A stretch of DNA of 38,940 nucleotides, taken from positions 1-38,940 of the IMG/VR virus record IMGVR_UViG_3300036828_000804. The stretch is one strand, 5' to 3'. Under the pieces are notes generated by a model. It had not been told where the DNA came from. It was given only the letters and a program-made list of their open reading frames with translations, and made no database searches. The stretch is from a virus. Both the position numbers and the translations under genes were made by a program. Below, piece after piece: positions 2,335 through 38,940 of this stretch (its first letter is position 1; each line of letters opens with the position of its first letter).

Positions 2335-3027
2335 TCATGCAGCTGCCGGAGCCGGGGGTGATACGGGTATGAACACGTCCCAGTCGACACCGGCGTCGTA
2401 CTCCCAGCCCGAGTCGGTCCAGTACTTCGAGTCCCAGGCCGCGATGGTGTACTCGCCGATCTCGTCCGGCCAGCCGTTCTCCATCCGGTCCTTCCCGGAC
2501 ACGTCCAGCGCGCACTTGACCCCGTAGGGCAGTCGGTCGCACTCGGGCGTGTGCGCCAGCTCGTAGAGCGGCGCCAGCTGGCCCTGCTCGTTGACGTGGT
2601 GGGACACGGTGAGCCGGTGGTACGTGCGGTAGCGGACGCCGTCCGTCGGCTGCTCCGCCTGCCGGGCGAGTATGCCCGCCACGTCGGGCTTGCGGTAGTT
2701 CGGGCCCTTCTGGACCTTGCCGTCCACGGTGTCGCCGCGGGACTTGGTCATGTTCGCCGCGTGCACCGCCTCGATCACCTCGTCCAGGCCGATGCCGTAC
2801 GTCAGCGCGGTGCCGTAGAGCACGTACACGCAGTCGGCGAGCTCCAGCGCGATATCCGGCAGCTCGCCGTAGAGCACCGCGTCGCCGAGCTCGCGCACCT
2901 CGGACTGGTATATCCGGGTGCGGATCCCAGCCAGGTTCGGCCCGGGCTGCCGGGGTGTCTCGGACATCGGCAGGCTGAACGTCTCGTGGAACTCGCGCAC
3001 CATGTCGGCTGCGCTCTGTCCGTTCAT
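2335..3027 (-). CDS. MazG/HisE-like nucleotide pyrophosphohydrolase with extra C-terminal domain
   Basis: The N-terminal ~130 residues resemble all-alpha NTP pyrophosphohydrolases: acidic helices with ELPDIALELADCVYVLYG and a following GIGLDEVIEAVHAANMTK, the classic E-rich Mg-binding helix pair and the 'H-x-x-N-M-x-K' signature of the phage/HisE-like branch. Such enzymes split (d)NTPs to NMP plus pyrophosphate. The remaining ~100 residues form a second, aromatic and acidic domain (WPDEIGEYTIAAWDSKYW) with a Cys pair that I do not recognise. The start MNGQSAADMV is preferred; upstream extension is shadow sequence. It ends at a terminator. Confidence 0.75.
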   Translation of the reverse strand: MNGQSAADMVREFHETFSLPMSETPRQPGPNLAGIRTRIYQSEVRELGDAVLYGELPDIALELADCVYVLYGTALTYGIGLDEVIEAVHAANMTKSRGDTVDGKVQKGPNYRKPDVAGILARQAEQPTDGVRYRTYHRLTVSHHVNEQGQLAPLYELAHTPECDRLPYGVKCALDVSGKDRMENGWPDEIGEYTIAAWDSKYWTDSGWEYDAGVDWDVFIPVSPPAPAAA

Positions 3028-3212
3028 CCCCAGACTCCCATCTTCGTGTTCTGATCCTTCACGTACTTCCACATGGTCACCGGCCCGCAGACGAACAGGT
3101 GCCCCTCGAGCATCCGGCGCCGGTGCTTGAACCGGGCCACGGCGTACCGGCCGCGGACGCCCTGCGGGTCCACCGGCGGCTTGTCCAGCAGCGCCCTGCA
3201 CGGGTCCCTCAT
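3024..3212 (-). CDS. Small basic hypothetical protein (62 aa)
   Basis: A 62-residue, Arg/Lys-rich protein (FKHRRRMLEGHLFVCG) coupled to both neighbours: TGATG with the upstream gene and ATGA with the MazG-like gene. No family recognised. Charge and size would suit a nucleic-acid-binding or host-inhibiting peptide, but that is inference. Confidence 0.55.
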   Translation of the reverse strand: MRDPCRALLDKPPVDPQGVRGRYAVARFKHRRRMLEGHLFVCGPVTMWKYVKDQNTKMGVWG

Positions 3213-5560: not shown

Positions 5561-6081
5561 TCCGCACCTCCGGGGAGTTCGAACTCGTACATGCTGGTGT
5601 CGTCCAGCGCCAGCCGGGCGAGCCCGGCCGGTACCGTGTCGTCGCGCTTGATCGGGATGCCGAACGCGCTGAGGATCTTCTCGGTGATCCCGAAGCGCTC
5701 GGCCTCGGCCTCGTTGATCGTCAGGGACTGCGGAGCCCGGCGCTGCCGCTCGACCTCGCCGATATGCCACTTCAGGATGCGCAGGAACGGCTCGGACTTC
5801 ACCGCGTTGTCGGCGGGCGCCATGGTGGCGCCGTTGATCCGCCCGACCCATTCGGGCAGCCGCTCGTCGAAGGCCGCGATGGCGCAGCCCTGTCCGCCGA
5901 GCAGCGCCCGGCGCATGTAGCCCGCGACGAGGTGCCAGCGCTGGCCGGACTTGGGGTTGCGGGCGTCGTTGGCCTGCTTCTCGAACAGCTCGGCCTGCCG
6001 GACCGCCCACTTGACCTTGGAGCGCGCCCAGGCGATGGCCTCCGGGTCGGAGTCGAAGCGGGAGAACTTCTGCTCGCTCAC
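5557..6081 (-). CDS. Hypothetical protein (174 aa)
   Basis: A GTG start at 6081 overlaps the upstream stop (GTGA). The N-terminal ~80 residues are helical and charged (SKVKWAVRQAELFEKQAND); the rest is mixed alpha/beta. The gene lies in the middle of the leftward operon. No motif identified. Confidence 0.65.
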   Translation of the reverse strand: MSEQKFSRFDSDPEAIAWARSKVKWAVRQAELFEKQANDARNPKSGQRWHLVAGYMRRALLGGQGCAIAAFDERLPEWVGRINGATMAPADNAVKSEPFLRILKWHIGEVERQRRAPQSLTINEAEAERFGITEKILSAFGIPIKRDDTVPAGLARLALDDTSMYEFELPGGAE

Positions 6082-6704
6082 GATTCGGTCACCCCGACGC
6101 GCTGCTCGTCCAGGAACCGGACGTAGTCGTTCAGCGCCTTGGCCAGCTGGCGCAGGTTGGCGGGCTCGATGAAGGCGTGGGTCACGCCGCCGTCGTCACC
6201 GGCGAGCGCCACCCATGCGCGCGGTCCGGCGTGCGGCAGGATGATGTGGTTGCCCCGCTGGTCCTCGTCGCCGTCCAGCGCGATGACCAGGTTCTGGCCG
6301 TTGCGCAGCGTGACGATGTTCGATCCAGGGCCGTCGTCCCGCTTGCTGTAGTCGCCGTCCACCGTCCGAATCGACTCGGCCACCTGGGCGACCGCCTTCG
6401 CGTTCAGCCGGTCCACGGCCGCGTCCAGTAGATCACGCAGTTCGGCGAACCCCGTTGCGGTCGCCTGCACGTGCCAGTTGGTGATGTCCTGGCGGGCCAG
6501 GCCGGACGGGCCTTCGTAGCACTTGCCGACCTTGTAGTCGTAGACCTCCCAACCCACCGCGTCGTCAACCCACTGCGCCATCGACTTGTGGTCGTCGCGC
6601 GGGTTGTCACCGTCGTTGCCGAACGCCTCGACCAGCAGCGTGTACGGCGCGGTCAGTTGGTCGATGCCGTGCGTACCCGCGAGAAGCTCGTATGCCGCCG
6701 TCAT
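6078..6704 (-). CDS. Hypothetical protein (208 aa)
   Basis: Begins MTAAYELLAGTHGIDQL, coupled by ATGA to the upstream gene. The C-terminal half reads as a beta sandwich (VALAGDDGGVTHAFIEP) followed by a helix. It is one of the longer leftward genes but shows no catalytic signature that I recognise. Confidence 0.65.
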   Translation of the reverse strand: MTAAYELLAGTHGIDQLTAPYTLLVEAFGNDGDNPRDDHKSMAQWVDDAVGWEVYDYKVGKCYEGPSGLARQDITNWHVQATATGFAELRDLLDAAVDRLNAKAVAQVAESIRTVDGDYSKRDDGPGSNIVTLRNGQNLVIALDGDEDQRGNHIILPHAGPRAWVALAGDDGGVTHAFIEPANLRQLAKALNDYVRFLDEQRVGVTES

Positions 6705-6958
6705 GATCCCGCCTCTACCCGGTCGCTGTTGCGCAGAGCGCTCTTGAAGGCGTCGGCCAGCTCCTCCGGCGTGGCGCCGCCCTTGGCCGCCAGGTGCTCC
6801 AGGCACCCGCATAGGTAGGCGAGCGCAGCGCTGTTGCGGTCGCCGCGCGCGCACTGCTTCTGGAACGGATCCAGCTCGGGCGCCGGGCGCCAGTCGATGA
6901 ACTCGCTGAACGCGGCCTCGATCTGGTCATGCGCCGCGGTGGCCGTCATGTTGACCAT
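6701..6958 (-). CDS. Hypothetical helical protein (85 aa)
   Basis: First gene after the leftward promoter at 6980-7018. The ATG at 6958 follows GTTCAGGGAAGAGAGG. The protein is helical with three Cys (one in YLCGCLEH) and ends in the helix TPEELADAFKSALRNS. Function unknown. Confidence 0.6.
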   Translation of the reverse strand: MVNMTATAAHDQIEAAFSEFIDWRPAPELDPFQKQCARGDRNSAALAYLCGCLEHLAAKGGATPEELADAFKSALRNSDRVEAGS

Positions 6959-12706: not shown

Positions 12707-12719
12707 ACTTGTCATCAGA
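12707..12719. promoter_or_regulatory. 13-bp operator at a gene end (stoperator-like)
   Basis: ACTTGTCATCAGA matches the repeat at 12 of 13 positions. It abuts the terminator stem and covers the stop codon of the helicase gene. No promoter is expected here, so a bound protein would block elongation rather than initiation. Confidence 0.5.
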
Positions 12720-14127
12720 CGACGGGAGGCGTTATCCGGATGATGCGCTTGCCTCCGTGCAGCCGGGTCTTGTCGATCCGCCAGCCGAGCGCTCCCAGGG
12801 CCTGTGAGGTGCGCTCGATGCGGTCCGACAGCGACCGCGCCGTCCAGTGCGAGCGTCCCTCGTCCTGGAGGTTGCCGTGCATGACGAGGTAGTGCAGCAG
12901 TTCGGTCGCGGTGCCCTCCCAGGTGCCGCGTACGGCTGCCGTCAGGGCCATGGCGACCGTGTCCCCCTCGACGATGTCCTCCAGGGCGTTGAACCGGCCC
13001 ATGCGCCACGAGGCCATGGCGTTGGTGCGCCAGCGCCGGTCGACCAGCGAGACGATCTGCGAGAACCGCGTGAGCCGGTCCGATCCGGCCGGTGACGGCA
13101 GGGACTGCATATCGGCCAGGATCTGCACGGTGCGGTCCAGCAGCCACGCCAGCGCACTCGGATGCGCCAGCGCCCACGTGGCCGCGACCTCGTCGTCCGA
13201 GCGGAACGCGGTCAACCGTGACAGCCTGTGCGCCGCCAGCCGGTCGGCCAGGTCTCCCTGCAGCCCGCCGAGCGTGATCCCGTTCAAGATGATCACGCTT
13301 TGAAACGAGGTCACGAACAGGTCTCCGTCGGTGTACAAGGCCCTGTCCACCCAGCCGTCACCGGATGCCGCCTTGCACAGCGCGTCCGACCACCAGCGCG
13401 AGACGCCGGAGACGTTGTCCATCGCCATCACGTACCGGCCGCCAGCCATGGCCGCCCAGGTGCGCTCGTCCCGCGGCACCGGCTGCATCGCGGGCGAGGC
13501 GTCGATCCAGTTCGAGGTGATCCGGGTCGTACCGGTCTTCGCCGATCCGGGCGGTCCTGAGATGACCTCGATCGGGTGCGTAATGCCCGGGAACAGCGAG
13601 GCGATCCGGCAGGCGACATACAGGGCCCAGTCGTTGTCGTCCACGATGTTGATCAGGTCGCGGACCCTGTCCAGATCCCCCTCCTCCGCTGGCACCGGCA
13701 GCTCGCCGGTCAGCGCAGTGCGGTGGAACAGCACCGGCGGCCGGTTGATCACCCGCCAGTGACCCGGCCGGATCTCGACGGCCTTGCCGTCCGGCCGTCC
13801 AAGGTCCAGGAACACCGAGCCGCTGTGCGAGGCGAGGCGGAGGTTCGGAGTGACCCGGCTGTGCCCCATCGCGGCGCCCTCGGCCAGGTTCAGCACCGTG
13901 GTCAGGGCCTCGTTGTTGGCCGCCCGCCCGGTGTGCCGATACATGTCCGTGGCCAGCCGGATACGGAGTCCTGAGTTGCCGCGCAACGGGATCATGACCG
14001 AGGGCACGTCGTTGCGCACGGCGAATGGCCGTCCGTCAGCTGTGGCCGCCAGGTAGTAGTCCCGCTGCAAGATCCCCATCAGGGTGTCGACCGCGGACGG
14101 CGCCTGCACGGCGGCCGTGCCGGTCAT
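12715..14127 (-). CDS. AAA/SF3-like replicative helicase (470 aa)
   Basis: Walker A GPPGSAKT lies at 191-198, a Walker B-like strand RYVMAMDN at 231-238, a sensor-like VIILNGI at 278-284, and ADRLAAHRLSRL with candidate arginine-finger residues after it. The N-terminal 170 residues read as a beta-rich domain and the last 75 as a winged helix (WEGTATELLHYL onward). This order fits the helicase half of phage primase-helicases of the D5/P4 alpha type; the primase is a separate gene at 15388-16308. The start at 14127 overlaps a 12-codon leader ORF (ATGA). It should unwind DNA at the phage fork. Confidence 0.8.
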   Translation of the reverse strand: MTGTAAVQAPSAVDTLMGILQRDYYLAATADGRPFAVRNDVPSVMIPLRGNSGLRIRLATDMYRHTGRAANNEALTTVLNLAEGAAMGHSRVTPNLRLASHSGSVFLDLGRPDGKAVEIRPGHWRVINRPPVLFHRTALTGELPVPAEEGDLDRVRDLINIVDDNDWALYVACRIASLFPGITHPIEVISGPPGSAKTGTTRITSNWIDASPAMQPVPRDERTWAAMAGGRYVMAMDNVSGVSRWWSDALCKAASGDGWVDRALYTDGDLFVTSFQSVIILNGITLGGLQGDLADRLAAHRLSRLTAFRSDDEVAATWALAHPSALAWLLDRTVQILADMQSLPSPAGSDRLTRFSQIVSLVDRRWRTNAMASWRMGRFNALEDIVEGDTVAMALTAAVRGTWEGTATELLHYLVMHGNLQDEGRSHWTARSLSDRIERTSQALGALGWRIDKTRLHGGKRIIRITPPVV

Positions 14128-14162
14128 GTCCGCACCTGGGCTGCCGTGTGTATGCTTCTCAT
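14124..14162 (-). CDS. 12-residue leader ORF before the helicase
   Basis: MRSIHTAAQVRT is preceded by GAGAGAGGA and ends in TGA overlapping the helicase ATG. The helicase has no good ribosome site of its own, so it is probably translated by re-initiation after this peptide. Confidence 0.5.
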   Translation of the reverse strand: MRSIHTAAQVRT

Positions 14163-14198
14163 CGAGTGGTCCTCTCTCTGGTAGGGGAAGAGCGCTCC

Positions 14199-14226
14199 GG
14201 ACGTCCCGGGGATAGGCGGGACGTCC
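14199..14226. repeat. Hairpin in the helicase leader
   Basis: GGACGTCCC (14199-14207) pairs with GGGACGTCC (14218-14226) around a 10-nt loop. The arms are themselves nearly palindromic. In the untranslated leader it may tune expression or act as a weak terminator. Confidence 0.45.
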
Positions 14227-14299
14227 ACACTCCTGTGCAGGTCGCATCGCCGGGGTCGGCGGCCAGGTCCCACCAACCTAGCGCGGTAGCACAGGACCG

Positions 14300-14334
14300 G
14301 CGAGGGACCCGATGACGCCACTCGGGTCCCTCGC
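14300..14334 (-). terminator. Hairpin terminator after the Toprim gene
   Basis: A perfect 13-bp stem (GCGAGGGACCCGA at 14300-14312 with its complement at 14322-14334) and 9-nt loop lie 18 bp past the stop at 14352. No T tract follows. Confidence 0.65.
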
Positions 14335-14351
14335 GGACTATACGGCGACAT

Positions 14352-15335
14352 CTAGTCGACCGCGTCCAACTCGTCACGCAGGTACCGCTCGACCGACTCC
14401 CAGTTCTCCGCCGCCGCGGTCAGCACCGCGCGCTCGCGATCCCCTCGGGCGAGGCGAGCGTCGTACAGCTCGGGCACCAGGTGGCGCCGGATGCTCGTGT
14501 CCACCAGCTCGACCAGGGTCTGCGGCTCCAGGGCGTCCAGCTCCCAGCAGTCGGTGCCGTACAGCTCGACGTATCCGGCGAACCGGCTGTCGGTCTCCTT
14601 GGCGTAGTTGGGCGGCGGGTTGTACGCCCGCACCTGGTCCAGGGTCAGCGCGATCCGGTCCACCGTGCAGTCCGAGCGGAACAGCGACAGCCGCTCCTGG
14701 ATGTCGCGCGGGATATCTATCCCGGTCGGGTCGTGGTCTCCCAGGTAGAGGATCGTGGTCTTGCGACCGTTCCGCTCGTACGCGCGCAGCCGCTGCGCCG
14801 CGTCGTGCACGAGGGAGTGCGACGGGCTGCCCTTGCATGCGGTGTAGCCGACGTTCAGCGGGCCCGCGGCGCGGGCGATGACGTCGACCAGCGCGTCCTT
14901 CTCCACCCACACCTCGACGTGCTCGGGCTGGCCGTCCCAGTGCGTGATGTCGTACTGGTTGGCCACGGCGTCCAGCGCGCTGGCCGGGGAGTCGAACCCG
15001 TAGTCGCCGCCAGCCGATTCCCGGCCGCGGTCCTCGATGTGCGACCAGTCGATCAGACCGGCTACGCGTGCGTCCGCGATCAGCGATCCCAGCCACTTGT
15101 AGTTGGCCTGGCAGTTCTTGGTGCCCTGCCCGCTGGTGTTGCCCGGGTCGCGCCGGTCGCCGGTGAAGTACCGGCTGTCCGGGAACGCGTCGGTGGCGAT
15201 GAACCGGTAGTAGAGCTGACGCAGCGTCAGGCGGTAGCCCTCCGCGGCGTACTGCTGGCAGATCGCGTCCGCGGCCTGCACGACGGCCCGTCCGGCCTCG
15301 CTGAACGTCCGGCCCTCATATCTGATCTTGCTCAT
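14352..15335 (-). CDS. Spo11/Top6A-like Toprim protein (327 aa)
   Basis: The N-terminal domain holds YRLTLRQLYYRFIAT (34-48), where the Tyr pair at 42-43 corresponds in pattern to the catalytic tyrosine motif of Spo11 and topoisomerase VI A. The next helices (KWLGSLIADARVAGLIDW) continue that resemblance. A Toprim domain follows with VWVEKDAL (Glu145) and ILYLGDHDPTGIDI (Asp200, Asp202). Top6A cuts both strands and needs a GHKL ATPase B subunit; none is seen here. Free-standing A-like proteins (Mini-A) are known from mobile elements. It lies between helicase and primase, so a role in replication or recombination start is likely. The start follows GTTCAGGGAGGAGC. Confidence 0.75.
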   Translation of the reverse strand: MSKIRYEGRTFSEAGRAVVQAADAICQQYAAEGYRLTLRQLYYRFIATDAFPDSRYFTGDRRDPGNTSGQGTKNCQANYKWLGSLIADARVAGLIDWSHIEDRGRESAGGDYGFDSPASALDAVANQYDITHWDGQPEHVEVWVEKDALVDVIARAAGPLNVGYTACKGSPSHSLVHDAAQRLRAYERNGRKTTILYLGDHDPTGIDIPRDIQERLSLFRSDCTVDRIALTLDQVRAYNPPPNYAKETDSRFAGYVELYGTDCWELDALEPQTLVELVDTSIRRHLVPELYDARLARGDRERAVLTAAAENWESVERYLRDELDAVD

Positions 15336-15359
15336 GTTGCTCCTCCCTGAACGGTGCTT

Positions 15360-15398
15360 ACTGATGACAAGTTAGCACGGCGCGCGGTCATCTGCCAT
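15360..15398 (-). promoter_or_regulatory. Leftward promoter with exact 13-bp operator
   Basis: Plus strand 15360-15372 is the exact complement of ACTTGTCATCAGT. On the minus strand CTAACT (15375-15370) overlaps it as the -10 box, with ATGGCA 17 bp upstream as a fair -35. It would drive the Toprim gene; the -35 lies in the 3' end of the primase gene. Confidence 0.65.
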
Positions 15399-16308
15399 GG
15401 CCTCTGAGCCATGCGTCGCGCTGGGCGCGTTCCTTCTGCTTCTGCCCGTCGATGAACTTGCGGGCCGACTCGTTGATCGTCATGACCTCGCGCCAGGGCA
15501 TGCCCATCTGGTCCCCGGCCAGCCAGATGACCATCAGCTCCTCGAGCACGTCGTCGGCGGTCATCTTGCGGTGCAGTGCGCACGCCGCCCGGTACATCTC
15601 CCGGTTGCGGGTGCCGACCTGTGCCCCATGTGTCTTCAGCTCCTCGAGGTCTACGTCCTCATCCGATCCGTTGCCGCCGCCGGATCCGGGCCCGGGGCCC
15701 GCCGAGGCGATCCACTGCAACACCCATGGCGGCGCGTCCCCGGCGTCGCAGAAGCACCCACCGGTCCACCGGTACGGTACCGGCACGGACTCTCCGCTAC
15801 GCGACGCGACCAGCGCCGAGGAAGGCGGGGCCACCACGAGGTTGCCGTCTCCCAGGACGTCCACGCCGGGCAGGATGCCGGGCCGCGCCGGTACGCGCAC
15901 GCCGCGCTCGGTGCGCAGCCACAGGTGCACGCCGCCGGACGGGGTCGCGGCCACGGACGCGCCGGGCAGCCCGTATCCGCGCTCCCGCATGAAGGTCCAC
16001 AGCTCGCCCGGCCCGTTGTGCCCGTTCTTCACGTCCAGATCCAGCACGACCAGGCGGGACGGCGACCCGCACGCCACACCCAGGTTCGCGGCCTTGTCCT
16101 GTGACCAGCACCACTTTGCGGCCTTGGCGTCCTTCGACGCCCAGTGCACGCCGCCTGAGTCCCCGAGCATCCGGTGCGGCCTCTTACGGCCGCGGGCCAG
16201 CGGCAGCACCGCGAACCCCTGCCCCTGGTAGCGCAGCGCGGCGGCGCCGATCCCGAGCGCGCGCACGACGGAGTCGGCCGAGTCGAAATCTTGATGTTGA
16301 CAATCCAT
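15388..16308 (-). CDS. AEP primase-polymerase (prim-pol), 306 aa
   Basis: The N-terminal ~200 residues carry the prim-pol signature: GFAVLPLARGRKRPH, the metal-binding strand LVVLDLDVKNG (Asp90, Asp92), the SGGVHLWL motif with His128, and a GNLVVAPPS strand. A Gly/Ser/Asp-rich linker leads to a helical PriCT-like tail (THGAQVGTRNREMYRAAC onward). Such enzymes synthesise primers and can extend them. The partner helicase is encoded separately at 12715. The ATG at 16308 (MDCQHQDF) is preferred because GGGAGGAA lies just upstream; an in-frame ATG at 16353 would precede it inside the promoter. Confidence 0.85.
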   Translation of the reverse strand: MDCQHQDFDSADSVVRALGIGAAALRYQGQGFAVLPLARGRKRPHRMLGDSGGVHWASKDAKAAKWCWSQDKAANLGVACGSPSRLVVLDLDVKNGHNGPGELWTFMRERGYGLPGASVAATPSGGVHLWLRTERGVRVPARPGILPGVDVLGDGNLVVAPPSSALVASRSGESVPVPYRWTGGCFCDAGDAPPWVLQWIASAGPGPGSGGGNGSDEDVDLEELKTHGAQVGTRNREMYRAACALHRKMTADDVLEELMVIWLAGDQMGMPWREVMTINESARKFIDGQKQKERAQRDAWLRGHGR

Positions 16309-16319
16309 GTGTTCCTCCC

Positions 16320-16364
16320 TGACCTTTGCCCGGATTCTACTGTAGAGTGTCACTGATGACTAGT
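16320..16364. promoter_or_regulatory. Divergent promoters with shared 13-bp operator
   Basis: Rightward: TAGAGT (16343-16348), then ACTGATGACTAGT (16352-16364), a 12 of 13 match; the -35 is weak. Leftward: TAGAAT (16339-16334) with TAGTCA 17 bp upstream, inside the same operator. One bound protein could shut both the primase gene and the polymerase operon. Confidence 0.6.
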
Positions 16365-19687: not shown

Positions 19688-20154
19688 CCATGCTGGCACA
19701 AGCAGTGATGTTCATCGATCCAGGCGGCATGACCGGCCTGGCTACGCTGTCCGGCGCACAGGAGTTCTGGGCCGACGAGTTCCCGCCCGATCGGGCCGCG
19801 GAGATCATCGCGTCATTCTGCGAGCGGTGCAACTACGCGGGCATGATCGGGTGGGAGAGGTTCCACATCGGGCCGCAGACGCACAAGCTCACGCAGGAGC
19901 CGGTGCACCAGACGATCGAGATGATCGGCGTAGCCCGGTACCTGGCCGTGACGCATCACGTGCGGATCATCACACCGGCCGCGCCGGACGACCGCAAGGT
20001 GGCCAACCCGGCCATGTTGCGTGCCCTGGGCATCTGGCCGTCCGGCAAGGACGACGCGCAGTCCGCGGCCCAGCACCTGGTGGCCTGGTGCCTGCGGACC
20101 GGAGACATGCCAGCTCACTGGCGTGCTAAGCTCACGACTGCTGACATCTTGTAG
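19684..20154 (+). CDS. RuvC-like Holliday-junction resolvase (156 aa)
   Basis: An RNase H-fold nuclease pattern is clear: FIDPGGMTGLATL (Asp12) as first strand, IGWERF (Glu58) as the second acidic site, and GKDDAQSAAQHLVAW (Asp123, Asp124, His131) in the last helix. Such proteins cut four-way junctions and branched DNA before packaging. The ATG at 19684 overlaps the previous stop; in-frame sequence upstream is shadow. The stop overlaps the -10 box of the promoter for the helicase at 20192. Confidence 0.8.
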   Translation: MTMLAQAVMFIDPGGMTGLATLSGAQEFWADEFPPDRAAEIIASFCERCNYAGMIGWERFHIGPQTHKLTQEPVHQTIEMIGVARYLAVTHHVRIITPAAPDDRKVANPAMLRALGIWPSGKDDAQSAAQHLVAWCLRTGDMPAHWRAKLTTADIL

Positions 20155-20157
20155 AGT
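20137..20157 (+). promoter_or_regulatory. Putative promoter before the SNF2 helicase
   Basis: TAGAGT (20152-20157) is a -10 box like those of the other promoters; a degenerate operator ACTGCTGACATCT (10 of 13) lies just upstream. The leader GATCAGGGAAGAG follows at 20166-20178. No clear -35. Confidence 0.45.
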
Positions 20158-20191
20158 CGGCGGAAGATCAGGGAAGAGAGGGACGGCGGAT

Positions 20192-22075
20192 ATGGCATGG
20201 GCTGAGATATCCAACCATGGATACCCGAACCAGCAGATCGTGATCGGATGCAGCACGGTGGAGAACCACCTGGCCACCCAGATGCCCGGTTGCAATTTCG
20301 ACAAGAAGGCAGGAACCTGGCACGCGCCGCTGTCCTGGGCGACGGTCGCCACAATGCACATGCTCTGGCGCGGCCAGCCACTCGACATCGGCCCCGAGCT
20401 CACGGCGTGGTCCAAAGAGGCGTACGAGGACGTCCTGTACGCCTGGACGTTGCGCACCGCGATGGACGACGACGAGGCGGAGGGGATCAGCGACGCGCTC
20501 GACGAGTTCGATGCCGCCAGCCTGCCGTTCCCGGACGGCCGCCCGCGCAAGCTGTACCCGTTCCAGCGCGCCGGGGCCGCCTACCTGTACGAGCGGCGCC
20601 ACGGCATCCTCGGCGACGAGCAGGGCCAGGGCAAGACCATGCAGCTGATCCGCGGGATGCAGCTGGCCCGCGCGCTCGGCGGGGTCAACGGCGACCCGTT
20701 CCCCGCGCTGGTCGTGTGCACGGCAGCGGCCGTGCGCAACTGGGAGCGGGAGATCGCGAACTGGGCGCCGGAGCTGCGCACGGCCGTGGTGGACGGCACC
20801 TCGCTGCGCCGCCGTCAGGCGATCGAGCGGACCGACGCGGATATCTGGATCATGGCCTGGCCGAACGTGCGGTCGCACACCCGGCTCGAGGCCTACCCCG
20901 GCGTGCGGTTCGTGCGCTGCAAGGCGTGCGGGGGCATCGACGACGGCATCGCGTCCGCCCGTTGCGAGGTGCATCCGAAGGAGCTCAACCTGACCGGCCG
21001 ACCCTGGCGCACGGTGATCGCGGACGAGGCGCACCGGATGCAGGACGCGCGCTCTAAGCAGACCAGGGCGCTGTGGTGGCTGCTGCACCAGGCGGAGTAC
21101 CGCTGGCTGGTCACCGGCACCCCGATCGCGGACCACATCGGCCAGCTGTGGCCGCTGCTGCACGGCCTCGACGCCGCCTCCGCGCCGAGCCGCAGCCGGT
21201 ACCTGGACCTGTTCGCGATCAAAGAGATCAACTTCCACGGCGGCTCGACCGTGCTCGGCATCCGGCCGGACACCGAGCAGACGTTCCACAGCTTCGTGCA
21301 GCCGTTGATCCGGCGCATCCCGCGGGAGCTTGCGCTGCCGTTCCTGCCCAAGCGACTCGAGCCGGTGTTCCGCTACCCGGCCATGACCCCGGCGCAGAAG
21401 CGCGTCTACGACAAGATCGCCAAGCAGGCCATGGTCGAGCTGGAGGGGCGTCTCGTCGTCGCGCAGAACGATCTCGTGGCGTTCTCCCGGCTGTGCCAGC
21501 TGGCGTCGTCCATGCTGGAGGTCGTCGAGGGCGAGGACGCGGACGGCTTCACCACGCAGAACCCGCGGATGGTCATGCCGTCCTCGAAGGTGGCCGACCT
21601 GATCGACTTCCTGGAGGACGAGGAGGGCCAGCTGGTCGTGGCCGCCAACTCCCCGCAGCTGGTCGCGCTCGCGGAGAAGGCCCTGGCCGTCAAGAAGATC
21701 ACGAACTGCAAGGTCGTCGGCGGCATGAGCTCGGACGCCATGGACCAGTCGGTCGACTGGTTCCAGCGCGGGGCCTGCCGGGTCATCCTCATCACCGCGG
21801 CCGGTGCCGAGTCGATCACGCTGACCGCGGCGCACACGATCTTCTTCATGCAGCCCGACCCGAGCTGGCGGTCCCGCGAGCAGAAGATCGGCCGCATCGA
21901 CCGCATCGGCCAGCGGGGCCACCCGCAGGGCGGCGTGCGCGTCGTCTACTCGATCACGCCGAAGACGGTCGAGGAGCGGCTGTTCGCCCTGGGCGAGCAG
22001 AAGGGCGAGCGCGCCGCCCAGGTGACCCAGGACGCCGAGATGCTGCGCTGGATGATCGGCGGCGGCGATGAGTAG
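20192..22075 (+). CDS. SNF2-type DNA helicase/translocase (627 aa)
   Basis: Motif I is GDEQGQGKT (141-149), motif II ADEAH (277-281), motif III LVTGTPI, and the C-terminal lobe ends with ITAAGAESITLT and KIGRIDRIGQRG (motif VI). A zinc-like insertion CKACGG...CEVH lies at 243-261 between motifs Ia and II. Phage SNF2 proteins translocate on duplex DNA and are thought to help recombination and replication restart. The start at 20192 follows the GATCAGGGAAGAG leader. The N-terminal ~120 residues hold a beta-rich accessory domain also seen in SMARCAL1-like phage enzymes. Confidence 0.88.
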   Translation: MAWAEISNHGYPNQQIVIGCSTVENHLATQMPGCNFDKKAGTWHAPLSWATVATMHMLWRGQPLDIGPELTAWSKEAYEDVLYAWTLRTAMDDDEAEGISDALDEFDAASLPFPDGRPRKLYPFQRAGAAYLYERRHGILGDEQGQGKTMQLIRGMQLARALGGVNGDPFPALVVCTAAAVRNWEREIANWAPELRTAVVDGTSLRRRQAIERTDADIWIMAWPNVRSHTRLEAYPGVRFVRCKACGGIDDGIASARCEVHPKELNLTGRPWRTVIADEAHRMQDARSKQTRALWWLLHQAEYRWLVTGTPIADHIGQLWPLLHGLDAASAPSRSRYLDLFAIKEINFHGGSTVLGIRPDTEQTFHSFVQPLIRRIPRELALPFLPKRLEPVFRYPAMTPAQKRVYDKIAKQAMVELEGRLVVAQNDLVAFSRLCQLASSMLEVVEGEDADGFTTQNPRMVMPSSKVADLIDFLEDEEGQLVVAANSPQLVALAEKALAVKKITNCKVVGGMSSDAMDQSVDWFQRGACRVILITAAGAESITLTAAHTIFFMQPDPSWRSREQKIGRIDRIGQRGHPQGGVRVVYSITPKTVEERLFALGEQKGERAAQVTQDAEMLRWMIGGGDE

Positions 22076-36170: not shown

Positions 36171-37576
36171 GGTACTGACCCTCCGATCATCTTGAAAGCG
36201 TTGCGCCAGGAGACCGTGCAGCGCGACGTGCCGCTCAGATCCTGCGCCGAGTAGGTGACCGGAATCAGGGTTCCGGGCGGGATCATGAAACTGTCCAGCG
36301 GGTTGCCGCGCACGGACCCGCTCAGGGACGCGGCTACGGCGGTCGACCCGTACGGGTCGGCCCCGATCGAGCTGGTGATTCCGACGTACCGGTTCCACGG
36401 TACCGTGGAGATGACCGCAGTCTGGGACGGTGCCAGTGTCGTCTGTATGGTCAGGGACGCCGAGTTGCCCGGGAAGACGATCGACGGATTGATGCACGGA
36501 CCGGTGATCGTGATGACCGGCCAGGTGTCCGTCGTCCCCGAGTTCAGGATGGCGCTGCCGTAGTAGACACCCTGGGTGAGCACGACCGTGTCCGTGTAGA
36601 AGCTGACGGCCCCGGACGCGGCGTAGCTGACGGACAGGGCGAGGTACGCGGCGCCGGTGGGCGCGGCCTGCAGCCCGCTGACCGCTACGCCGCCGGTCGT
36701 CGCGGTCACCGTGCCGAAGGTGACCGGGGAGCCGATGGCCCCCAGCGCGCCGTTGAGCCACTGGCCGCTCAGCGTGGCGGTCCCGCTGCCCGAGCTGACC
36801 CGTACCTTTGCGCTGGCCGAGTAGGACAGCCCGGCGATGACCGGGATGTTCGCGTAGCTGGCCGACGCGGTACCGGCCCCGGTGATCACGGCCTTCATCG
36901 AGTGCGTGCCGATCGAGGCCCAGTCGGTCGACGGACCGAGGGACGAGATCAGCGTGATCGGCGTCCAATTCCCGGTCCACGGCAGCTCGAAGTCGGAGTC
37001 CGCCGCGGGCACCAGGTTGCCCGCCGTCTGCACCGCGGCCAGCGCCACCGGCGGGGTCAGCGGAGGCGCCACGCCGCCGCCGGAGAAGGCGTAGGCGGTG
37101 CCCAGGGTGAACGACTGCAGGGTGTCCCCGTAGAACACGTTGTCGGCGCATTCGAAGTCCGCGGTGAACGGCACGTAGCCTTGGTTCACCATGCCGAGGA
37201 CCGGGTTCCAGTTCCGGCCGCGCCCGTAGGCGCGCCGGGTGACGGAGCTGCCCGGGTACATGGCCCGCAGCGTGCTGACCGCTCCCGGGGTCCACCGAAC
37301 CGACTTCTTCTCCCACGCAGCGGCGAAGGCGTCGAGCGCGTTCAGCTGTGCCAGGCCGGTGTCGCCCTGGGTGAACGCCTGGCCGGTGAAGGAGACCATC
37401 ATGCCAGGCAGCACGTCGAAGCCGAACCGGCGTCCGTCGTTGTTGATCAGCTGGTTGTCCTGCGCCACCGGGCTGCCCGGGGTAACCGTCGTCTTGGCGA
37501 TCGAGACCACCTGGCCCCTGCCGAACACCAGGCCGTCGATGGAGTACTGGCCCGAGCTGAGGATCGGATCGCTCAT
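36167..37576 (-). CDS. Distal tail protein, Dit-like (469 aa)
   Basis: The N-terminal ~170 residues fit siphovirus tail component family proteins: SIDGLVFGRGQVVSI, RFGFDVLPGMMVSFTGQAF and VPFTADFECADNVFYGD. A carbohydrate-binding-like insertion (about 190-330) and a return to the Dit fold (VITITGPCINPSIVF, WNRYVGI) complete it. It links tape measure and hub. The ATG overlaps the tape measure stop. Confidence 0.85.
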   Translation of the reverse strand: MSDPILSSGQYSIDGLVFGRGQVVSIAKTTVTPGSPVAQDNQLINNDGRRFGFDVLPGMMVSFTGQAFTQGDTGLAQLNALDAFAAAWEKKSVRWTPGAVSTLRAMYPGSSVTRRAYGRGRNWNPVLGMVNQGYVPFTADFECADNVFYGDTLQSFTLGTAYAFSGGGVAPPLTPPVALAAVQTAGNLVPAADSDFELPWTGNWTPITLISSLGPSTDWASIGTHSMKAVITGAGTASASYANIPVIAGLSYSASAKVRVSSGSGTATLSGQWLNGALGAIGSPVTFGTVTATTGGVAVSGLQAAPTGAAYLALSVSYAASGAVSFYTDTVVLTQGVYYGSAILNSGTTDTWPVITITGPCINPSIVFPGNSASLTIQTTLAPSQTAVISTVPWNRYVGITSSIGADPYGSTAVAASLSGSVRGNPLDSFMIPPGTLIPVTYSAQDLSGTSRCTVSWRNAFKMIGGSVP

Positions 37577-38940
37577 GATCCAGCCACCACCGACTGCAAC
37601 TCGGTGTTGCGCAGCGTCCTGGCCAGCTCGCGCATGGCGTATTCGACGTCTCCGGTACCGTAGAACGCCGTCTGATATGTGCCGATCATGGGCCTGCTAC
37701 CGGCGATCATCGCGACGAGCCTGTCGAGCGTGTCCTTGCTGCTTCCCCGCTTGCCGTAGGAGGCCAGCGGAGTGACGCTGACATGCTCGGCCCCCTTCTC
37801 CCCCACGCCGATGACGGTCGGGTGCGAGAAGACCCCGTCGAGCCCGTTGCCATACCAGTTGTATGCCATCTCGTGGCCCCACGCGGCCTCGGGGGTGCCG
37901 TAGCGGCCGAGGATGTACTGGTACATCCACCAGATCTGCACCGCCGGGTCCGCGGAGCCGCCAGCCGACGCTGGCCAGCCCATCTTCGGCATCTTGGTGT
38001 ACGGCAGCGCCTGGGCGATGCCGAACGCGCCGGAGGACGGGTTCATAGCGAGGTTGTTCCAGCCAGCCTCGCGCATCTCCAGGTTGTTCCAGCTGGCCCA
38101 GTTCGCGCCGGTGGCCCACGCCGGGACCAGAACCTTGGCCAGGGCGGCGTTAGCCGCCGGGCCGGACCCGACCGGACCGCCTCCGCCTCCGCTGAACCCT
38201 CCGCCTGATATGCCGGACAGGAGACCGTTCTTGATCTGGTCCAGGGCGAAGTGGACGGCGGTGTTGATGATCGTCTTGGGGATGCCGATCATCATCGTGG
38301 CGAGCTCGCCGACCGTGTTCGCATCGGTCTTGACGAACTTCATCAGCTCGCTGGGCAGCGATCCGAGGCCTCCGCCGCTGGCGATGGAGGACACGACGTC
38401 GCCGACGATCCCGCCGACCGAGTACCCGGGCACGCCCGCGGCTGCGAAGATCGGCGCGAGCATCTTCGAGTGGGCGGCCGAGACGACGGTCTCGCCGCGG
38501 CTGGCCCGGATCAGCACGTCGTCGGCGGTCGGCCCGGTGCCAGACGTGATCTTCCCACCCGCCGCCAGCCCCTTGACGTCGGGCAGCTTCGGTCCGTTGA
38601 CCGCGCTCATCACGAAGTTCCAGAGCTTCTCGATGCCGATCGTGTACACGGTCTCTATCAAGAAGTTGACAGGCGTTTTGAAGATGTCCTCGAGCACGTT
38701 CCACGCCTTCTTGATCCCGGCGACCGCCGAGTCGAAGGCGTTGGGCAGGGTAACGGTGAGAAAGTTGGCGATCTTGGCGCCGAAGTCGGTCCAGATCCAC
38801 TGGTAGAAGTCGAGGCCGACCTGCTTTATGGCGCCCCAGATCTGCGACCAGTGCTTAGAGAGCAGGTCCACCGCCAGGGCGATCATGCCGACCGGGCCGA
38901 GCAGCGGCAGCAGCCATTTGCCGAACCCGTTCCAGATGAA
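37573..38940 (-). CDS. Tape measure protein, C-terminal part, with transglycosylase-like domain
   Basis: The frame stays open to the window edge, so 455 C-terminal residues are present and the N-terminus is missing. Amphipathic segments (LSKHWSQIWGAIKQVGLDFY, TVTLPNAFDSAVAGIKKAW) are typical of tape measure proteins. The region MREAGWNNLAMNPSSGAFG with IAQALPYTKMPK and WWMYQYILGRYGTPEAAW fits a lytic transglycosylase-like (SLT) fold, with the Glu in REAGWNN as catalytic residue; it would help cross the cell wall. The end (GVGEKGAEHVSVTP) matches phage tape measure termini. Confidence 0.88.
   Translation of the reverse strand, partial: FIWNGFGKWLLPLLGPVGMIALAVDLLSKHWSQIWGAIKQVGLDFYQWIWTDFGAKIANFLTVTLPNAFDSAVAGIKKAWNVLEDIFKTPVNFLIETVYTIGIEKLWNFVMSAVNGPKLPDVKGLAAGGKITSGTGPTADDVLIRASRGETVVSAAHSKMLAPIFAAAGVPGYSVGGIVGDVVSSIASGGGLGSLPSELMKFVKTDANTVGELATMMIGIPKTIINTAVHFALDQIKNGLLSGISGGGFSGGGGGPVGSGPAANAALAKVLVPAWATGANWASWNNLEMREAGWNNLAMNPSSGAFGIAQALPYTKMPKMGWPASAGGSADPAVQIWWMYQYILGRYGTPEAAWGHEMAYNWYGNGLDGVFSHPTVIGVGEKGAEHVSVTPLASYGKRGSSKDTLDRLVAMIAGSRPMIGTYQTAFYGTGDVEYAMRELARTLRNTELQSVVAGS

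Follow-up and report, generated by a model that had tools for sequence, protein, structure and literature searches.

The locus described here raises the question of what a protein of the Top6A/Spo11 kind can do in a virus when it appears to be encoded without a B subunit. The gene lies in the window, by which we mean the whole stretch of DNA that was analysed, a virus record of 38,940 bases. A first-pass annotation of this DNA had read the gene as a Spo11/topoisomerase VI A-like gene lacking its partner and had mentioned the stand-alone Mini-A proteins only as an analogy. The name Mini-A is years old, yet no function has been reported for it, and the primary paper is reportedly that of Takahashi et al. 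2020. The review passages that treat Mini-A describe it as a truncated Top6A homologue encoded by bacterial and archaeal viruses, and one such passage gives Pseudomonas phage NP1 as an example; the background on Mini-A, Top6A, Spo11 and JetD/MksG used here comes from PMC8185306, PMC7614492, PMC11302465, PMC13040014, PMC12203943, PMC11922746, PMC8084294 and PMC11746154. A search of the open-licence literature found no Mini-A biochemistry, in line with statements in the review passages. If Mini-A cuts DNA alone, it would offer a minimal model of an A subunit without its ATPase, and possibly of the origins of Spo11-like break-making.

The gene is read from the minus strand, with an ATG at 15335 and a stop that ends at 14352; a strong ribosome-binding site, read from the sequence as AGGGAGGAGCAACATG, stands ahead of the start. 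Relatives in phages, plasmids and an archaeal virus share 26-62% identity with it, so the open reading frame (ORF) originally called is real and did not arise by chance. The RNA fold of 14290-14345, the region of an inverted repeat past the stop, has an energy of -33.8 kcal/mol (z -5.1), and promoter and terminator scans gave approximately background signal. The record is probably a fragment, since a simple check found no exact terminal repeat and the right end (37573-38940) lies at a tape-measure-like ORF whose matches fall mostly in the later part of the profiles. Features are collected in the table.

Features of the Mini-A gene, its surroundings in the window and the gene that replaces it in related phages
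Feature	Position	Strand	Evidence
Mini-A (Top6A/Spo11-like) gene, 327 aa	14352..15335	minus	ORF and translation; PHROG 6247; AF2 model and fold searches
Mini-A ribosome-binding site AGGGAGGAG	15340..15348	minus	sequence reading
Arg39 codon, putative equivalent of Top6A R102 / Spo11 R131 (Tyr minus 4)	15219..15221	minus	169/169
Tyr43 codon, predicted catalytic tyrosine	15207..15209	minus	169/169; aligned to second Tyr of Top6A TxREaYY; structure alignment offset
Glu145 codon, Toprim glutamate	14901..14903	minus	169/169; hhalign column match to Top6A
Asp200-His-Asp202 codons, Toprim DxD	14730..14738	minus	D200 169/169, D202 168/169; hhalign
Glu265 codon, proposed Top6A E342 counterpart	14541..14543	minus	169/169; shared E-x-x-A context
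13-bp inverted repeat past the Mini-A stop, before the P-loop gene	14300..14334	minus	sequence; strong, without a T run
P-loop ATPase-like ORF, 510 aa, downstream neighbour	12715..14247	minus	GPPGSAKT read from sequence; no significant family
Prim-Pol primase gene, upstream neighbour	15388..16353	minus	PF09250 4.6e-26
SNF2 helicase, the clear helicase of the window	20021-22075	plus	1.5e-31
84-aa PHROG 9722 ORF replacing Mini-A	L211 and L210, 3488-3739		

The placement of the protein was obtained from PHROG, the fold and hhalign, and from these only. It matches PHROG 6247 ('DNA topoisomerase') with an E-value of 6.2e-85, and this family is common to 19/19 aligned relatives, including Pseudomonas phage NP1 and the archaeal virus HCIV-1. 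The NP1 protein is 35.9% identical over 94% of the window protein (tblastn, E 7e-47). Given the NP1 homology and the presence of PHROG 6247 in all 19 aligned members, the window protein is by sequence a member of the already described Mini-A family, so that the likeness first offered as an analogy proves to be real membership. Pfam and NCBIfam returned no significant family for it, and TP6A_N (PF04406) had no match in the window while the archaeal controls matched, for which reason the protein is not filed under TP6A_N.

Relatives were found by tblastn in 75 of 50,697 phage records and in 60 of 72,556 plasmid records; a scan of viral contigs confirmed at least 581 and a scan of genome contigs 237. 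They occur across bacterial phyla, and the genomes of the named carriers, one of them an archaeal sphaerolipovirus, are of varied type and range in size from 22.5 kb to 87 kb. The plasmid-borne relatives are mostly from Streptomyces (44 of the 60 plasmid records), and three that were read retain R-x-x-x-Y. The window protein itself groups with those of three uncultivated viruses in a small clade.

All three motifs from which the gene had originally been recognised are present: TLRQLYYRF at residues 37-45, with Y42 and Y43, VEKDAL at 144-149 and GDHDPTG at 199-205. A chance origin of these motifs was considered and is excluded, as a strict, ordered three-motif pattern was found in one ORF of the window and never when the Mini-A protein was shuffled 100,000 times. 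Residue conservation was counted over 169 different sequences, drawn from 180 loci and the window with identical proteins counted once; left out were L004 (intein-like insertion), L015 (split ORF), L166 (internal stop) and L019 (annotated start too late), and the tyrosine is present in L004, L015 and L166 when these are read individually. R39, Y43, E145, K146, D200, P203, G205 and E265 show no variation, and the sole exception at D202 is an Asn in Mini-A of HCIV-1 (GDFNPSG; L017 5845-6873), the conservation of the DxD being partly selected because its letters were contained in the pattern with which L021-L180 were scanned. Y43, R39, E145 and E265 lay outside that pattern. Tyr42 differs in 8 of the 169 sequences, which makes the second tyrosine, Tyr43, the constant one. 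Other Mini-A proteins share the PHROG; the window protein adds to theirs an insertion of ~20 residues following the tyrosine helix (residues 53-73), where its residues 55, 56 and 59-63 face a gap in 153-157 of the 169 sequences.

Residues R, Y, E, D, D and E are invariant in 16 archaeal Top6A proteins (those of 25 loci for which a simple centre rule recovered a full ORF), with a spacing of four from R to Y, as in Mini-A. For E265, the shared E-x-x-A context suggests as the counterpart Top6A E342, the fourth acid of the clasp with R102 in M. mazei numbering, and hhalign of the C-terminal stretch gave no independent alignment between the two. Q144 of Spo11 is said in a source excerpt to be invariant throughout Spo11 and Top6A; no obvious counterpart stands nine residues past Tyr43 in Mini-A.

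An AlphaFold (AF2) model of Mini-A, built with 91 sequences including that of the window, reached a pLDDT of 93.3 and a pTM of 0.86. Foldseek against the PDB gave four chains at E<=1e-3, all of them Top6A, with low whole-model TM-scores of 0.40-0.44. The top match in VIA-align was Top6A as well (1d3y_B, Z 11.5, 226 residues, rmsd 5.1, model 11-285 on chain 71-364), and Spo11 was aligned over both domains (8uru_A, Z 8.5, 199 residues, rmsd 4.5, model 12-283 on 104-398). The N-terminal domain was also predicted alone, from an alignment of 76 proteins; its best VIA match was 1d3y_A over 69 residues (rmsd 2.2, 12-104 on 72-143), with a Z of 6.9 that barely exceeds those of other winged helices (6.1, 6.0), and Foldseek with this domain found nothing significant (1d3y_A, E 6.8). 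If the first helices align gap-free, residue 43 corresponds to residue 103 in 1d3y, which we take to be the catalytic tyrosine, and to residue 135 in Spo11. The catalytic tyrosines reported in the source passages are Y135 of Spo11 and Y106 of M. mazei Top6A. An hhalign comparison with the 16 archaeal Top6A proteins gave E 3.9e-5 over the Toprim part (probability 70.6), and with the N-terminal, winged-helix part alone it set Y43 on the Top6A tyrosine, weakly (E 0.0047-0.038). A search of a viral structure library gave nothing useful, and phmmer and a profile search of PDB sequences found no relative of Mini-A, the sequence similarity to Spo11 being too low for either.

The first-pass annotation had agreed to abandon its reading should the tyrosine fall outside the active-site position of a predicted A-subunit fold. 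This was not the case, and the reading is supported: Tyr43 lies on the catalytic tyrosine in both the profile and the structure alignments, and in its predicted structure the Mini-A gene product is a genuine Top6A/Spo11-like protein, a winged helix with the tyrosine upstream of Toprim. Compared with Top6A, the order of winged helix and Toprim is the same and Arg, Tyr, Glu and DxD are kept, but Mini-A is shorter and no Top6B was found. Spo11 shares the fold and the catalytic residues; it is a eukaryotic meiotic protein with dedicated partners, yet it can break DNA without them, according to a passage of the literature.

From these features a mechanism can be proposed in which a single polypeptide would supply both halves of the chemistry, a winged helix with the catalytic Tyr43 and a Toprim domain with Glu145, Asp200, Asp202 and, in all probability, Glu265. 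The analogy of Top6A and Spo11 suggests that Mini-A would form a homodimer with hybrid active sites, where Tyr43 of one subunit would attack DNA bound in the metal site of its fellow subunit. The breaks would be independent of ATP and reversible and would leave the protein attached to the 5' ends, and such break or swivel activity on DNA would feed phage recombination and replication. Mouse SPO11 is described in PMC11922746 as making double-strand breaks without partners, with active sites shared by two subunits, and as staying on the 5' ends; because Mini-A keeps the same residues, a homodimer with SPO11-like chemistry would be expected. It is very likely that Mini-A is a tyrosine transesterase of the Top6A type, and it probably acts without a partner. 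The combined proposal of a partner-free homodimer, whose reversible, 5'-tyrosyl-linked breaks feed recombination or replication, is one that we favour with reasonable confidence. The chemistry can be argued strongly and the role only weakly: a main role in recombination or replication is a tentative assignment, for which the case is slightly less than even, and a role in competition is the main alternative.

The absence of a B subunit bears most directly on whether Mini-A could instead be a strand-passing type IIB topoisomerase, borrowing a host or unrecognised phage ATPase and relieving supercoils in phage replication. Such an enzyme would suit the database label 'DNA topoisomerase', the full Top6A-like active site and the replication or recombination genes annotated within 6 kb in 12 of the 16 named loci (L005-L020), which is a raw count with no background rate; L016 and L017, among the remaining four, carry no informative annotation there. 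Its partner was nevertheless not detected: HATPase_c and Topo-VIb_trans matched in 0 of 32 other Mini-A records, a subset of the 180 loci in which 16 are genomes of named phages or viruses whose deposits are marked complete, while the positive controls matched, and HATPase_c was not found in the window. Because two Pfam models were used (HATPase_c for the window, both for the 32 records), a divergent or host GHKL partner could have escaped these searches, and because the record looks like a fragment, the negative result applies to the window as searched and may not extend to the whole phage. Topoisomerase VIII carries a GHKL half, and no GHKL domain is fused to Mini-A. Topoisomerase VIII is also a type IIB enzyme of mobile elements, and Mini-A is called close to it in a review passage.

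A dedicated partner is not apparent among the neighbouring genes either. Neighbouring ORFs of 70 aa or more, up to 6 kb away, were clustered over 173 loci, of which some are truncated at a contig end, and no neighbour gene was conserved with Mini-A; the most frequent family, which holds a window ORF that is probably the SNF2 helicase, occurred at 27 of the 173 loci, and other clusters resemble prophage integrases or regulators, as judged by eye from sequence starts. Since Mini-A spans bacterial phyla, a single dedicated partner would need to be everywhere, and Mini-A moves as one gene. We consider a strand-passing topoisomerase unlikely. For the partner-free homodimer, no ATP-driven strand passage would be expected, because no GHKL partner was found.

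The gene had been placed between a helicase and a primase gene. The primase, a Prim-Pol, is confirmed; the 510-aa P-loop ORF on the other side gave no significant match naming a helicase in Pfam, PHROGs, NCBIfam or PADLOC, and the SNF2 helicase lies farther away, together with a family A DNA polymerase and a PD-(D/E)XK nuclease, on the strand opposite to Mini-A. A coupling of Mini-A to its two immediate neighbours was examined and rejected, as relatives of the Prim-Pol occurred in only 2 of the loci then compared and those of the P-loop ORF in 0.

The movement of Mini-A as a single gene can be seen directly among related phages. Mini-A of Salmonella phage SPN19 (L019 5989-6882) is exchanged for an 84-aa ORF of PHROG 9722, a family with no assigned function, in Chi and SeF6b, and the flanks are 94.5-99.0% identical on both sides. 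The SPN19-type Mini-A is present in 6 records, which represent three phages with two deposits each; the 84-aa gene is present in 76 records and the adjacent thyX-like gene in 98. In the Queuovirinae, the gene order of PaMx25 is ligase, small ORF, Mini-A, Sak4, and at the same place in Alteromonas phage R7M the ligase is followed by a RecA-like ATPase. The Chi-like exchange and the difference between PaMx25 and R7M establish that Mini-A is accessory in the Chi-like and Queuovirinae lineages and moves without a partner, and the Chi-like exchange makes it less likely that replication depends on Mini-A. The Chi-like phages provide matched natural pairs with and without Mini-A, whereby its role becomes directly testable in laboratory strains.

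The presence or absence of the gene at one Chi-like locus between nearly identical flanks, its distribution over plasmids and phages, and its position between ligase and Sak4 in PaMx25 would also suit an accessory weapon or a selfish cassette, which would spread by breaking DNA that lacks Mini-A, or damage host or rival genomes, in the manner of free-standing homing endonucleases. The Chi-like Mini-A, however, replaces another gene and does not enter an uninterrupted site, and Spo11-type enzymes have little sequence specificity. On a tree of 83 proteins, members from one host phylum cluster together (20 changes, where shuffling gives 42.4 on average), so that the spread of Mini-A is not rampant at phylum depth. 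Such a weapon or cassette is held to be improbable, and the recombination and replication role of the homodimer is retained as the tentative choice.

Among the plasmid-type relatives, four of the sequences read, L218, L220, L209 and pNO33 (in L208), all from Streptomyces, carry QAEAL in place of the Mini-A ELDAL, and others carry EVEAL. In M. mazei Top6, a source excerpt reports that a Glu-to-Gln change at the proposed counterpart of this position, a clasp, leads to more cutting. The plasmid substitution is a lead only, since the alignment there is uncertain. A wider view, which we regard as speculative and doubtful, would see in Mini-A a self-sufficient prokaryotic Spo11, a partner-free single-gene cassette of phages and plasmids that starts viral recombination without an ATPase, and of which some plasmid members may have lost the clasp glutamate and become prone to cleavage.

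A different chemistry would apply if Mini-A were a metal-dependent Toprim nuclease of the JetD/MksG sort, whose tyrosine forms no covalent link and which hydrolyses host, plasmid or competing phage DNA. JetD/MksG proteins are described in literature passages as distantly related Toprim dimer nucleases, and their VIA-align scores (8b7f_A, Z 10.6; 7til_B, Z 9.8) come near that of Top6A; weak matches to JetD in PADLOC (E 0.0043, residues 187-214) and to DUF2399 in Pfam (E 0.073) point the same way. These structure alignments, however, cover the Toprim half only (model 104-284 and 129-283) and stop short of the tyrosine-bearing domain, while those with Top6A and Spo11 span both domains, and a nuclease would leave unexplained why Tyr43 is invariant while Tyr42 varies. 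A nuclease of this kind appears quite unlikely, and the Top6A-type transesterase remains our preferred assignment. Least probable is a replication initiator that would act as rolling-circle Rep proteins do, nicking an origin so that a 3'-OH serves as primer and the protein stays bound to the 5' end. Cleavage would be expected to give just such a tyrosyl-bound 5' end and free 3'-OH, and the gene adjoins a Prim-Pol in the window; but the carriers are diverse in genome type and size, near-identical Chi-like phages do without Mini-A, and the Prim-Pol of the relative L021 is encoded on the strand opposite to Mini-A.

Several individual copies and one further window gene deserve mention. In L004 (8525-10591), a 210-kb uncultivated virus contig, an intein-like insertion stands directly before the Toprim VEKDAL, with matches to LAGLIDADG (PF14528, 1.7e-7) and Hint_2 (0.001). 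Mini-A of Parabacteroides phage PDS1 (L015 5914-6800) is split into two overlapping ORFs that are annotated as topoisomerase and primase, and the related AS73P1 is intact; a Marinobacterium copy (L166, ~6001-6900) has an in-frame stop in the Toprim region. In the window itself, the ORF at 2335-3201 on the minus strand matches the PRA-PH/MazG-like family PF01503 (7.5e-14).
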